The notes under the pieces were generated by a model, which was given only the letters and a program-made list of their open reading frames with translations, searched no databases and was not told where the DNA came from. The position numbers were made by a program, and so were the translations under genes. From Clostridia bacterium (lineage in GTDB: Bacteria; Bacillota; Clostridia; Oscillospirales; Acutalibacteraceae), in assembly GCA_017397105.1 (NCBI GenBank), contig JAFQKF010000007.1:1-49778 (forward strand): a stretch of 49,778 bases of DNA. Direction: 5' to 3'. Each line of letters begins with the position of its first letter. Positions within the stretch are counted from its first letter, which is position 1. This document shows positions 9,586-12,884 of the stretch, piece after piece.

Positions 9586-9614
9586 TTGACAACGGCTTTG
9601 GCATTTGATAAAAT
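9586..9614 (+). promoter_or_regulatory. Promoter of the tRNA-Arg locus
   Basis: TTGACA (9586-9591), 17-bp spacer, TAAAAT (9609-9614), a strong stable-RNA-type promoter. It lies 47 bp before the truncated 5' tRNA copy and about 200 bp before the intact tRNA. Confidence 0.8.
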
Positions 9615-9660
9615 AATCGGGCACAAAACGAATGCGCGGATTAAAGCGCAGATAAAATTA

Positions 9661-9691
9661 AATATATGCCTCCTTAGTTAAATGGATATAA
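9661..9691 (+). repeat. Duplicated 5' half of tRNA-Arg (copy 1)
   Basis: 31 bp identical to 9814-9844. It comprises 7 nt of leader and the tRNA acceptor 5' strand plus D-arm. It ends abruptly before the anticodon arm, so it cannot fold as a tRNA. It is the copy nearest the promoter. Confidence 0.9.
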
Positions 9692-9796
9692 GAACCTGAT
9701 GCTGACGCATCAGAACCTTGTTACTCGCTTCGCTCGTAATAAGAACCTCTTGTGTTACACACAAGAGAACCTTTTTACTCACTTCGCTCGTAATAA
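9692..9796 (+). repeat. Array of GAACC-spaced palindromes
   Basis: Four GAACC words at 9692, 9713, 9743 and 9767, each followed by a palindrome: TGATGC-TGAC-GCATCA (9697-9712), a unit at 9718-9742, TCTTGTG-TTACA-CACAAGA (9748-9766), and a unit at 9772-9796. Units 2 and 4 share the core TTACTCxCTTCGCTCGTAATAA. The array sits exactly between the two copies of the tRNA 5' half and is transcribed with the tRNA if the promoter is used. It resembles a REP-like element. Not matched to a named family. Confidence 0.75.
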
Positions 9797-9813
9797 CAGG
9801 CGCGGAAAAATTG

Positions 9814-9844
9814 AATATATGCCTCCTTAGTTAAATGGATATAA
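9814..9844 (+). repeat. 5' half of tRNA-Arg (copy 2, within intact tRNA)
   Basis: 31 bp identical to 9661-9691; it covers the leader and first 24 nt of the intact tRNA. Confidence 0.9.
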
Positions 9845-9895
9845 CAGGCCCCTCCTAAGGGTCAGTTGTGAGTTCGATTCTCGCAGGGGGTGCCA
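9821..9895 (+). tRNA. tRNA-Arg (anticodon CCU)
   Basis: 75 nt including an encoded CCA. The acceptor stem pairs GCCTCCT with AGGGGGT (G-U first pair), the anticodon stem is GGCCC/GGGTC with loop CTCCTAA (anticodon CCT), and the T-arm is GTGAG-TTCGATT-CTCGC. It reads AGG codons. The 3' 37 nt are repeated at 10892-10928, as expected when an element uses the tRNA 3' end as attachment site. It is followed by a strong terminator. Confidence 0.93.
9859..9895 (+). repeat. Direct repeat, attL-like (tRNA 3' end)
   Basis: 37 bp identical to 10892-10928. It runs from the anticodon-stem 3' strand to the CCA end, the classical core for site-specific integration into tRNA genes. Confidence 0.88.
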
Positions 9896-9901
9896 TTTTT
9901 T

Positions 9902-9950
9902 AAAGCCGAAAGTCCTTGAAAAATCAAGGATTTTCGGCTTTTTATTTTTA
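9902..9950 (+). terminator. Terminator of tRNA-Arg
   Basis: Near-perfect hairpin (AAAGCCGAAA...TTTCGGCTTT, 9902-9941) with TTATTTTT tail, 6 nt after the tRNA. Confidence 0.88.
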
Positions 9951-10176
9951 TACATTTTCAAAGACTTTATAAAAATCTGATTTTTACGTTAGCAGAATTG
10001 TCTCCCTAAGTTGGAATAATTATCACCCTTAAGATGATAATTCTTGCTAATCAAAAAAGTGACTGTTTTGTTGTTATAAAGCAACTTTTACTAAACAGAG
10101 AAACACAAATAAGCCAAGAAGGCAAAGAAGAATCCTTAACTAATGAGACGGATACTGTTGTAAACCCTATGGCCTT

Positions 10177-10596
10177 TCACATTCTCTTTTCATAATATAT
10201 GTTTACAATCAAATAAACAACAGAAAACAACAGCAAACAAGAAGCTAAAGAAACAAATACCCATAAAAATAAAGTGTTTTCAAATATCATGAAAAGAATT
10301 CCAAAAACAATCATCGCCAAAACCACACCTAAAAACATTGCACGAGAAGCAATTGTGGTACATTTTGAGGCGATATAAACATCTCTTTCATCCTCAAAAC
10401 TTTCATATTGTTTTTCTCCCAAAAAACGAGGGGATATGGCATTGATCAAACTGATTGTTCCGGAAACAGCGAGTAAAAAAGCAACAAACAGAATATTAGG
10501 TTTATCTGCCCAAATACATATTGCAAACTGAAACAAAGAAACAAAAATTGTCAGCATTCCAAGCACGAAAGACTTCTTATTTCTTATTAATTTCAT
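10177..10596 (-). CDS. Four-helix membrane protein, DUF2178/DUF3796-like
   Basis: 139 aa with four hydrophobic segments in two hairpins (about 11-30, 34-52, 87-107, 111-132). A charged central loop has ESFEDERDVYIASKC. A DERxxxIxxK loop in small four-helix proteins is typical of DUF2178/DUF3796-type membrane proteins, which are usually encoded next to a small XRE regulator, as here (14 bp after the HTH gene). Biochemical function is unknown. The gene is more A-rich than surrounding genes and lies inside the tRNA-bounded insert. Confidence 0.7.
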   Translation of the reverse strand: MKLIRNKKSFVLGMLTIFVSLFQFAICIWADKPNILFVAFLLAVSGTISLINAISPRFLGEKQYESFEDERDVYIASKCTTIASRAMFLGVVLAMIVFGILFMIFENTLFLWVFVSLASCLLLFSVVYLIVNIYYEKRM

Positions 10597-10610
10597 AAAA
10601 TCACCTCAGT

Positions 10611-10802
10611 TTAGTCAAAACAACATAATTCTTCAATCGTTACATTAAATACTTTTGAAAGCTTATAAGCGAGCATCAAAGAAGGACTGTACTGTCCTTT
10701 TTCAATTGAAATGATTGTTCTTTGCGAAACACCAACCTTGTCAGCTAATTGCTGTTGAGTCATATTCGCAGAAACTCTTAATTCTTTTACTTTTGTTTTC
10801 AT
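10611..10802 (-). CDS. Small XRE-family HTH regulator
   Basis: 63 aa, essentially only a Cro/CI helix-turn-helix (MTQQQLADKVGVSQRTIIS, then IEKGQYSPSLMLAYKLSKVF). It belongs to the family of compact regulators paired with four-helix membrane proteins. ATG 10802 has an AGAGGTG site. A perfect 34-bp palindrome overlaps its own -10 element, so autorepression is strongly suggested. It is the first gene of a two-gene unit inside the tRNA-bounded insert. Confidence 0.88.
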   Translation of the reverse strand: MKTKVKELRVSANMTQQQLADKVGVSQRTIISIEKGQYSPSLMLAYKLSKVFNVTIEELCCFD

Positions 10803-10814
10803 CGTGCACCTCTG

Positions 10815-10848
10815 TATGAAGTAAACTTCACGTGAAGTTTACTTCATA
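10815..10848. promoter_or_regulatory. 34-bp perfect palindrome, operator of the HTH gene
   Basis: The left half TATGAAGTAAACTTCAC (10815-10831) is the exact reverse complement of the right half (10832-10848). Each half contains its own GAAGT-NN-ACTTC dyad (10818-10829 and 10834-10845), centres 16 bp apart, so two repressor dimers could bind side by side. It overlaps the -10 hexamer and covers the start site. Confidence 0.85.
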
Positions 10849-10874
10849 TTAACATGTCTCCAAAGTTTTGTCAA
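10846..10874 (-). promoter_or_regulatory. Promoter of the HTH/membrane-protein pair
   Basis: Minus-strand TTGACA (10869-10874), 17-bp spacer, TAATAT (10846-10851), near-consensus. The -35 lies within 20 bp of the right-hand tRNA repeat. Confidence 0.88.
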
Positions 10875-10891
10875 CCAATTCTGGCTCTCAG

Positions 10892-10928
10892 GGGTCAGTT
10901 GTGAGTTCGATTCTCGCAGGGGGTGCCA
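10892..10928 (+). repeat. Direct repeat, attR-like (orphan tRNA 3' end)
   Basis: Identical over 37 bp to 9859-9895. It lacks any 5' tRNA half, so it is a leftover 3' fragment. Confidence 0.88.
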
Positions 10929-10929
10929 A

Positions 10930-10966
10930 AGGGCTGTCTCACTTTTTAGGTGAGGCAGCCCTTTTT
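10930..10966 (+). terminator. Terminator beside the orphan tRNA 3' end
   Basis: AGGGCTG(T)CTCAC / GTGAGGCAGCCCT hairpin followed by TTTTTAT on the plus strand. It was probably the original terminator of the tRNA before the insertion. The hairpin may also stop minus-strand transcripts from the ABC gene, although the minus-strand T-run is only TTT. Confidence 0.75.
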
Positions 10967-10986: not shown

Positions 10987-12779
10987 TCAGTTCTGATAAT
11001 TCTCGCCCTGACTGATGAACATTTTATAATATTTGCCCTTCATGTTCATCAGCTCATCGTGTGTTCCGCTTTCAATGATTTTGCCGTTCTCAATATGGTA
11101 AATGCAATCAAAATCCCTCACGGTTGAAAGACGGTGAGCAATCATAACGGTGGTGGCGGTGTTTGAAATATCAAGTATATTCTGCATCAGCTTAACCTCG
11201 GATAACGGGTCAAGGGCTGACGAGGGCTCATCGAGTATCAACAGCCCGAACGAGCTTGTAAACAGCCGTGCAAGCATCAGTTTCTGCGCCTCTCCGCCTG
11301 AAAGTGCGATTCCGTCCTGTGTAAACTACGGGAAACCATTGTGTCAAGATTTCCGTTTACCCTTTCAAGCACTCCCGACAAGCCGACATTTTTAAGTATC
11401 TCACACAGCTTTTCATCCGTTGCGCTGTTATATACGGTAAGATTATCACGCAGGCTCATTGCAAGCACGCGGACATCCTGAAACACCACTCCGGTGTTAA
11501 GCCGCAATTGATGAACGTCATAGTCTTTTATGTTTTTGCCGTTGATTAGTACCTCGCCGCTGTTTGCATCGTATAAACGAAGCAGAAGCTTTGTGAGCGT
11601 GGTTTTGCCTGCACCGTTTTCACCGACGATTGCCACCCTTTGCCCCGGCTTTATGCAAAGATTGAAATCCTTGAACAGAAGAGAGGAATCCTCATATCCG
11701 AAGGAAACGTTTTTAAACTCAATTTCATAATTTCCCTCAGGGGCAGGGAGAGCGTTGGTTTTCTCAGGCTCGATTTTTGATTCAGCCTCAAAAAACTCCG
11801 CAACCTTTTCGCCGTTGGCTATGCACTCAAGCAGCTGCATAACGCTGCTTGCGGCATCGTTGAGCCCCGAAGCCAGAGCGGTTGAAGCAACGGTGAGCGA
11901 TGCATACAAGCCTATCTGCGATTTATCACCGTTGATAACGAAAAAGATTATATATGCAAGAATGCACGCTGCCTGTATGGGAGAAACTGCGCCTTGCAGA
12001 AGATGAAAGGGCGCAACCTTTTTTATATATTGCTTATAGACCTTCTGGAATTTATTCATTGCCGCATTGATTGAATCAAGAAGCTTCAAGCCTGCGCCCG
12101 ATGCACGCAATTCGGCGGCATTCTCCTTTGTTTTAAGCACTCTGCCTGAATACTCCATGGGGCGCCATGCGTCAACAAGGCTTTCTTCGTAATCTGCGGT
12201 GGGCTTTATAACGGGAATCCCCGCAAGCGCATTGAGTATAACAAAAAATGCGGTAATTCCGAGTAAAACAGGCCCCGTTGCGGCGATGATTGCAACCATT
12301 GCGGCAACCGTTGCAATACCGCGCAGAATATCGGGCAGAATCATAACAACATTCTGAGCGTGAACGGGATAATTATCCTGCGCAAAAATGAATTTTACGA
12401 AAAAGTCGGGTCTGTCATAATACCTGAAATCCGTTCTTAAAGCTTTTTTGTTAACGTCATTTTTGATTTTGTTGCTGACTTTTACAAGGGTAATCTGCGT
12501 ATACGCCATTTCAATAACCTTTTCAAGCGCAGAAACCAAAACGATAAACAGCGTGAACGCAATGATTATGAAGATAACTTCTTTGAGAGGGGCGTCATTC
12601 ATAACGGCATCGATTGCCCTTTGGGGCAAGAGCGCCGCAAGGTAAGCCGATACGGGTTGGAGCACTGCGGACATGAGCAAAACTGTGAGGATATAGCCTT
12701 TTCCGTATTTCCAATAGGGCTTGAGGAGAAATAAAATATAATTTATCTTTGAGAGTTTTTTTGTTTCTTTGTTTTTCAT
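10987..12779 (-). pseudogene. ABC exporter (permease-ATPase fusion), frameshifted
   Basis: Half-transporter: an N-terminal six-helix permease domain (to about 330), then an ATPase with Walker A GENGAGKT and Q-loop VVFQDV. The frame breaks at about 11325-11332 just before the signature motif. The first frame stops after a nonsense tail, while the next frame resumes with LSGGEAQKLMLARL, LLILDEPSSALD and the H-loop IAHRLST, ending at 10987. An in-frame TAG (11326-11328) precedes the resumed frame, so a 1-nt change alone does not fully restore it. It would be about 597 aa if intact. ATG 12779 is chosen (AAAGGTG site). Real decay or a base-calling error are both possible. A 34-codon peptide gene lies upstream on the same strand. 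Confidence 0.85.
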
Positions 12780-12884
12780 ATAATCACCTTTTATTAATAT
12801 TTTTGGGCATAACAAAACCTACCGGCATTCAAACAAGCGGTAAACACTTAATTAATTGCCGATATTAAAAAGGTAATTATTGAT

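Follow-up and report, generated by a model that had tools for sequence, protein, structure and literature searches.

How does a tRNA gene come to stand between a partial copy of its own 5' half and a displaced copy of its own 3' half? This question is raised by a locus in the window, i.e. the whole stretch of 49,778 nucleotides analysed here, which is contig 38 of the 1.85-Mb draft genome of a Clostridia bacterium (49 contigs, 76% complete). A single tRNA, a tRNA-Arg(CCU), was identified in the window by ARAGORN, and Rfam agrees. The answer is probably that two unrelated kinds of mobile DNA lie at this one gene, a small double-hairpin element upstream and the remnant of an integrative element downstream. 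Evidence for a mobile past is good for both of them.

The 5' direct repeat (9654-9691 and 9807-9844) spans 38 nt at 97% identity around an exact core of 31 nt (9661-9691 = 9814-9844), and the 3' direct repeat (9852-9895 and 10885-10928) spans 44 nt at 93% around an exact core of 37 nt. Both exact cores had been reported in a first-pass annotation made from the sequence alone and are confirmed here, as are the palindromes between the 5' copies and the genes for a helix-turn-helix (HTH) protein and a membrane protein between the 3' copies. The same annotation had described both tRNA halves as targets, and taking them for targets of one sort is not supported: only the 3' repeat resembles an attachment (att) site, whereas the 5' repeat is a partial tandem duplication of the leader and tRNA nt 1-29 that holds a repeat element. 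In this partial copy, nt 1-23 are followed by an interruption of 105 nt and then by nt 24-29. The interruption consists of two tandem double-hairpin units of 51 and 54 nt, arranged head-to-tail.

The double-hairpin element and its insertion point

Each unit in the window opens with AGAACC, followed by a hairpin whose sequence is particular to the unit, by AGAACCTT or GAGAACCTT and by a further hairpin in which TC stands opposite TC as a bubble; its last two bases are TA. The consensus of the element reads, after an RTA on the outside, AGAACC - variable hairpin - AGAACCTTG - TTAC.TC.GC-N3-GC.TC.GTAA - TA. Folded as DNA, positions 9687-9797 give a z-score of -4.49, with none of 200 shuffles being as good. 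No Rfam family corresponds to the array, as the gathering-score matches are the tRNA alone and none falls on the array at E up to 1. In 38 aligned units, 97.0% of the cells are paired compared to 77.6% after shuffling and 24-43% when the structure is slid, in a test that favours the unslid version, the structure having been named from the same sequences.

The variable hairpin covaries strongly. In the 38 units, six of six pairs have changed on both sides, with no one-sided (G-U) changes and 10 unpaired cells. Among the 52 distinct variable hairpins (7-30 nt), 299 cells comprise 286 Watson-Crick pairs, 2 G-T pairs and 11 mismatches. As a control, the 3' halves were shuffled within length classes, with the register chosen as for the real hairpins, giving on average 214 Watson-Crick, 13 G-T and 72 mismatched cells over 200 shuffles and never fewer than 8 G-T. 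Such a near absence of G-T is what would be expected of stems that are renewed or read as DNA, and covariation of this kind could be a signature to tell DNA-maintained from RNA-maintained hairpins.

An exact-core scan of GTDB contigs retrieved at least 116 stretches with the core, and the copy counts given below cover these listed stretches. The 80 titles listed are mostly Clostridia, Oscillospiraceae, Ruminococcaceae or Clostridiales assemblies from animal gut. When the locus region was searched in 60 genomes, its own included, matches were obtained in 44, many of them confined to the double-hairpin unit, and a covariance model built from 38 units (R1) matches in 37 of the 45 same-genus genomes (E up to 1e-3). 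Neither the 50,697 phage records nor the 72,556 plasmid records gave a blastn match to a 55-nt unit, and in a viral-contig collection the core is present in one stretch (L158, 3467-3544), between two reading frames. The flanks of this viral copy are nearly the same as those in a GTDB stretch (L143). Four contigs with the exact core are titled Patescibacteria or Blackburnbacteria (L060, L105, L116 and L118, by titles only), one of them (L060) with seven copies in a row. Copies inside another palindromic repeat family, of the GGGCGATTGATAAT...GCCCCTACGG type, were seen in five stretches (L036, L079, L083, L126 and L149), so such elements nest.

The insertion point is precise. Of the 54 distinct left flanks outside arrays, 53 end in A, 51 have a T next to last, and 53 have A or G as the third base from the end. 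Compared to an intact sister copy, the flanks join without loss at tRNA-Arg (GGATATA/ACAGG or GGATATA/ATAAACC, the slash marking the joint) and in L023 (TTTTCAGTATA/ATATTTAGTGAGG), and with one extra T at tRNA-Pro (GGGGTGTA/GCGC) and tRNA-Gln (GGGGAATA/GGGATTC). In 23 of the 119 parsed runs, the left flank lies in an ARAGORN tRNA of the run's own stretch, i.e. 16 Arg(CCU), 5 Pro(CGG) and 2 Gln(CUG). The break follows nt 23 in 15 of the 16 runs flanked by tRNA-Arg(CCU) and nt 26 in the remaining one. A scan for empty sites gave a match with at most 4 mismatches of 30 for 15 of 74 flank pairs, the match being in several cases a tRNA gene or the copy itself.

With respect to distance, 48 of the 147 listed copies are found within 300 bp of an ARAGORN tRNA and 3 at 301-1000 bp. 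Arg(CCU) accounts for 26 of these 48, Gln(CUG) for 11 and Pro(CGG) for 6 (43 together), and the others are Pro(UGG), Ser(GGA), Glu(UUC), Tyr(GUA) and Val(GAC), with one copy each. Array copies are not independent of each other, and among the Arg(CCU) genes close to copies some belong to a second type that is carried by elements; counted by stretch, tRNA-near copies occur in 34 of the 116. More than 1 kb away from the copies, these stretches hold 9 tRNAs in 610,186 bases, so about 1% of the copies would be expected within 300 bp of a tRNA by chance. Codons of tRNAs with C at position 34 (C34) can also be read by partners with U at that position (U34). In the window's own genome, for which 20 of 27 tRNA loci were scanned, tRNA-Arg(UCU), Gln(UUG), Pro(UGG) and Pro(CGG) were found and no tRNA-Gln(CUG) was seen.

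The tRNA part of the locus was returned in 20 of 37 same-genus genomes, again including its own, with the six best candidates scored per genome; in the other 17 it was not shown to be lacking. In eight of the 20 loci a partial tRNA copy holds the double-hairpin element (G000, G005, G017, G020, G023, G028, G035 and G036), and in two a different hairpin element occupies the same TA (G004 and G010). Seven are clean promoter-tRNA loci (G006, G012, G014, G016, G030, G032 and G033), the contig of G012 stopping soon after the tRNA. In the remaining three (G002, G011 and G022), the host tRNA is split in its anticodon loop by an integrative element, inside whose tRNA the contig of G022 stops. The comparison bears out the suspicion of a hot spot voiced in the first-pass annotation, and the uninterrupted arrangement that it had proposed to look for in relatives is indeed present. 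The double-hairpin element recurs at the same nucleotide in many species, beside congeners in which the site is clean. Outside the 20 loci, the element lies in a partial copy behind an intact tRNA in a further congener (G062), and a genome of another family of the same order (G038, stretch L009) also has the element in a partial tRNA copy. The different element (L012 of G004 and L013 of G010) likewise has two hairpins, starts with TCAA, ends with TTGAATA and follows the same D-arm TA of a partial tRNA-Arg copy. When the 116 stretches were scanned for a superfamily with the apical TCGC-N3-GCTC motif, it occurred 172 times, in 110 cases with the TTAC/GTAA arms already known, and few others were seen; the scan is weak because the stretches were picked by that very core. 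The second hairpin of the different element has an apical TCGC-N3-GC too, which keeps the superfamily as a lead.

Partial copies upstream of the gene stop a few nt past the insertion point, and downstream ones start some 10-14 nt before it; among the exceptions is L056, with whole interrupted tRNA genes in tandem. Large integrating elements classically dock at tRNA genes, mostly in the 3' half. Here an element of about 50 nt recurs at one D-arm nucleotide of one tRNA, plus two further tRNAs, beside intact copies. With this recurrence, the question of how minimal elements choose targets that look essential, and survive there, becomes testable.

The insert between the 3'-half repeats

Downstream, the 3'-half repeat has the appearance of an att duplication made by a recombinase, and it encloses an insert of about 1 kb. 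The HTH_3 protein of this insert scores 69.2 bits in Pfam, and the 139-aa protein matches DUF2178 with 21.2 bits, under the cut-off of 22.8. No integrase is present in the insert, the sole open reading frame (ORF) of at least 70 aa being that of the 139-aa protein. The insert restores the tRNA with an identical 3' half, unlike elements that bring their own tRNA. A complete element-borne tRNA-Arg(CCU), with a stretch that by eye looks promoter-like, is present in G002 (L273), G022 (L275, cut by the contig end), G023 (L003) and G028 (L007), and the integrative element of G011 (L274) brings another type of tRNA-Arg. In all five genomes the cut in the host gene falls at CTCCTAA, within the anticodon loop. 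Overall, ends of integrative elements were found in 6 of the 20 loci, three of which are also among the eight with the double-hairpin element.

Similar DNA with the same gene pair at the same tRNA is present in G023 (80% over 834 bp), where the right end is also similar, by eye only. The left end of the insert resembles that of the G002 element (75% over 211 bp, tRNA included), which continues with a 484-aa tyrosine integrase (PF00589/PF14659/PF14657, with a catalytic, a SAM-like and an arm-binding domain), a ParB_N protein and a DUF5131 protein; no right end could be located for this element. Allowing one mismatch, the left end of G002 has seven TTGCTAAC-type repeats within 450 bases, and the G023 insert has six (four left, two right). 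These repeats are plausible arm sites. A CIME is a cis-mobilizable remnant of an integrative and conjugative element. The insert is probably a CIME-like remnant of an integrative element, since it has tRNA 3'-half repeats at both ends, no integrase and a left end in common with an integrase-bearing element, as in CIMEs. It differs in being only about 1 kb long and in missing motifs at its right end.

Weighing the explanations

The proposed history of the locus would be as follows. The leader and the first ~29 nt of tRNA-Arg(CCU) would have been duplicated in tandem, and a small non-autonomous double-hairpin element would have entered the spare copy after RTA, at nt 23, the end of the D arm. 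The duplication may have come first, or the gene may have been restored after the insertion. A second unit in head-to-tail orientation is expected if the TA at the end of the element is itself a target. The element would be moved by an enzyme acting in trans, which probably recognises, in single-stranded DNA, the hairpin with the TC-opposite-TC bubble. The insertion may be tolerated thanks to the spare copy or because C34 tRNAs are redundant. Downstream, an integrative element would have recombined in the tRNA 3' half, the present copy of the insert having no integrase and keeping att repeats, a terminator and the HTH/membrane-protein pair.

Several observations weigh against this history. The listed copies more than 1 kb from a tRNA, or in a stretch without one, amount to 96 of the 147, which makes tRNA genes hot spots and not the sole target. 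Across the phylum the element is rare, with model R1 matching in 2 of 398 genomes, including the window's own (1e-4, strict filters). A strict pattern retrieves just the two units described here from the window's own genome, to which model R1 adds one weak place (28.3 bits), so the strict pattern gives no sign of recent movement in this genome. No gain or loss of the element within a species was seen. No mobiliser was found at the 30 Y1 places checked or by clustering of neighbouring genes. Lastly, the window's insert has three TTGCTAAC-type motifs, two of them left and none at the right end, a total within the range of shuffles (mean 1.0, largest 5), and this lack at the right end speaks against excision or mobilisation by a related integrase.

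A wider reading may be put forward as a tentative possibility. The element would represent a class of minimal mobile DNA, a double hairpin of about 50 nt, whose enzyme would read the bubbled hairpin together with the AGAACC linkers. The other hairpin would be rebuilt as a fresh, perfect DNA palindrome on copying, so that covariation would arise almost without G-T intermediates. Such elements would home on the genes of Arg CCU, Gln CUG and Pro CGG tRNAs, the codons of which can be read by a second tRNA, would live in spare tRNA fragments by the intact gene, and would have reached both Clostridia and Patescibacteria.

Among the alternative explanations, a divergent REP (repetitive extragenic palindromic) element moved by a REP-associated Y1 transposase (RAYT) fares least badly, and we still regard it as improbable. 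Y1_Tnp matches in 26 of the 45 same-genus genomes (47 places listed), and weak Y1 matches near the tRNA-Arg locus lie ~1.5 kb (G023) and ~1.7 kb (G062, L276) from element copies, as would fit a RAYT. However, none of the 30 places checked out of these 47 has GAACCTTGTT, GTTACTCGC or GCTCGTAATA in its stretch; G062 was missed in this check because most stretches extend only ~0.9-1.5 kb past the Y1 gene. The closeness in G023, G062 and G011 may also be plain neighbourhood synteny, the G011 match lying near the same tRNA-Arg locus, from which the double-hairpin element is absent. Moreover, the Y1 gene of G023 (L177, G023:C3:22500-24600) has a GTAG-GGGACGGC palindrome of its own adjoining it. When the 949 ORFs of 110 or more codons that lie no farther than 3 kb from copies in the 116 stretches were clustered, eight clusters occurred in at least four loci, the largest in seven, and on inspection none had the look of a dedicated mobiliser. 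One cluster, present in four loci, resembles a serine recombinase by eye.

A hallmark of REP sequences is a GTAG/GGAG-type tetranucleotide at the foot of the hairpin. The 38 aligned units instead have AGAACC and TTG before the hairpins and RTA outside, with no GTAG/GGAG; moreover, the two hairpins are unlike, one being of free sequence, and the Y1 genes near the locus may owe their position to synteny. REPs and REPINs with their RAYTs (IS200/IS605-like Y1; PMC2817692, PMC3116915) resemble the element in being short, non-coding, dispersed and hairpin-forming, in lacking terminal inverted repeats and in having specific bases at the insertion side. The element has TA at both of its junctions, where a TA owned by the element would look alike to a target-site duplication. 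Miniature inverted-repeat transposable elements (MITEs) of TA-target transposons, e.g. RUP with IS630, are similar in this respect and in being non-autonomous. However, the ends of the element (AGAACC... and ...CGTAATA) are not inverted repeats, and no parent transposon was seen. With its many dispersed copies, precise junctions and conserved fold, the element can be placed among the short palindromic mobile repeats, and not with REPs or MITEs, because the REP hallmark and inverted ends are both missing.

Rickettsia palindromic elements, which enter RNA genes too, are also palindromic repeats in genes and RNA genes when compared by description; the difference is that here the interrupted tRNA copies stand by an intact gene. 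Double-hairpin elements of mitochondria are reportedly known from work on Allomyces. Such mitochondrial elements (PMC2800124) share double hairpins, dispersal and tandem insertion with the present element and differ at least in their mitochondrial host. In bacteria, families of repeated stem-loops are mostly intergenic as well, and the survey in PMC2267715, in the portion available, had tRNA-related clusters removed and a species list without these uncultured Clostridia. No description of the element itself was retrieved from the literature with pieces of the core sequence or by concept, in a coverage that lacked most subscription papers.

It is also unlikely that the array is an RNA feature, i.e. 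a selected part of the tRNA precursor leader (for processing, stability or attenuation) kept as RNA structure. Its position between a promoter-like site and the tRNA would fit, as would the fold of a 275-nt RNA (z = -2.60, 3 of 200 shuffles as good) and a terminator-like stem in unit 2 followed by AACCTTTTTA (9747-9767). Nevertheless, most listed copies are not near a tRNA, several loci have copies downstream of a tRNA or antisense to it (tRNA-Gln), seven of the 20 congeneric loci lack the array, and the variable hairpin is nearly free of G-T. The promoter scan by itself is no proof, because five sites were found across the region against 4.1 expected from shuffles. From the promoter-like site to the intact tRNA there are 206 bases, compared to 13-28 in the seven clean congeners. 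If the old promoter is still in use, it would drive the intact tRNA through a leader of ~200 nt, which tRNA 5' processing would remove, making this distance a natural experiment on that processing.

Equally doubtful are immobile palindromes, that is, old inherited repeats that caused duplications by slippage. Palindromes provoke slippage-type duplication, vertical inheritance could explain units common to congeners, and in L006 (G005) a tandem duplication with three units in its first copy is joined at GCCCCT, common to leader and anticodon stem, a microhomology joint of the slippage type. Against this, one and the same core recurs at many sites unrelated to each other, with RTA junctions that are exact, and it is present at three kinds of tRNA and in records titled as another phylum.

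Very improbable is the view, perhaps implied in the first-pass annotation, that successive integrative elements left the two repeats as their att sites. Serial integration at this tRNA does occur, as in G023, where the 5' end of an element-borne tRNA is left, the tRNA being itself cut by another element, but the 5' repeat encloses the repeat element alone, breaks after nt 23 and stops at nt 29, whereas the observed integrative elements cut in the anticodon loop instead. An assembly artefact at the repeats, conceivable in so fragmented a draft and with contigs of relatives (L030 and L031) ending in such arrays, can practically be dismissed because separately assembled genomes have related arrangements with different sequences, the repeats moreover being just 38 and 44 nt and the two units differing from each other.

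Feature map of the locus

Table 1 Features of the tRNA-Arg(CCU) locus, with positions in the window
Feature	Position	Strand	Basis
Promoter-like TTGACA-17-TAAAAT, likely promoter of the intact tRNA	9586..9614	+	consensus match 11/12
Partial tRNA-Arg(CCU) copy, nt 1-23	9668..9690	+	sequence and repeat comparison
Double-hairpin unit 1 (AGAACC ... GTAATA)	9691..9741	+	model R1, 78.1 bits for 9689-9741
Double-hairpin unit 2, other variable hairpin	9742..9795	+	model R1, 60.7 bits for 9740-9795
Partial tRNA copy resumes, nt 24-29 (ACAGGC)	9796..9801	+	sequence reading
Second copy of leader bases 9654-9667, abutting the intact tRNA	9807..9820	+	repeat search
Intact tRNA-Arg(CCU)	9821..9895	+	ARAGORN, Rfam
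Left att-like copy of the tRNA 3' half, the same as the right copy over 37 nt	9859..9895	+	repeat search
Terminator-like hairpin of the insert; a similar one stands behind the element-borne tRNA in G023	9902..9941	+	inverted-repeat and terminator scan
Left-end region with two one-mismatch TTGCTAAC-type motifs (9988-9995, 10044-10051)	9988..10051	.	motif scan
139-aa membrane protein, DUF2178-like (below cut-off)	10177..10596	-	ORF list, Pfam
Small HTH_3 (Cro/CI type) regulator, 63 aa	10611..10802	-	Pfam on 62 residues; stop read from sequence
Perfect palindrome of 34 nt immediately ahead of the HTH gene, a probable operator	10815..10848	.	repeat search
Right att-like repeat, displaced tRNA 3' half	10892..10928	+	repeat search
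Hairpin and T-run after the displaced 3' half (arms 10928-10942 / 10950-10964), probably the original tRNA terminator	10928..10966	+	repeat search

Just downstream of the locus, an ABC-transporter gene is present as two minus-strand frames (10987-11277 and 11277-12815) that meet at 11277 in a frameshift-like manner.

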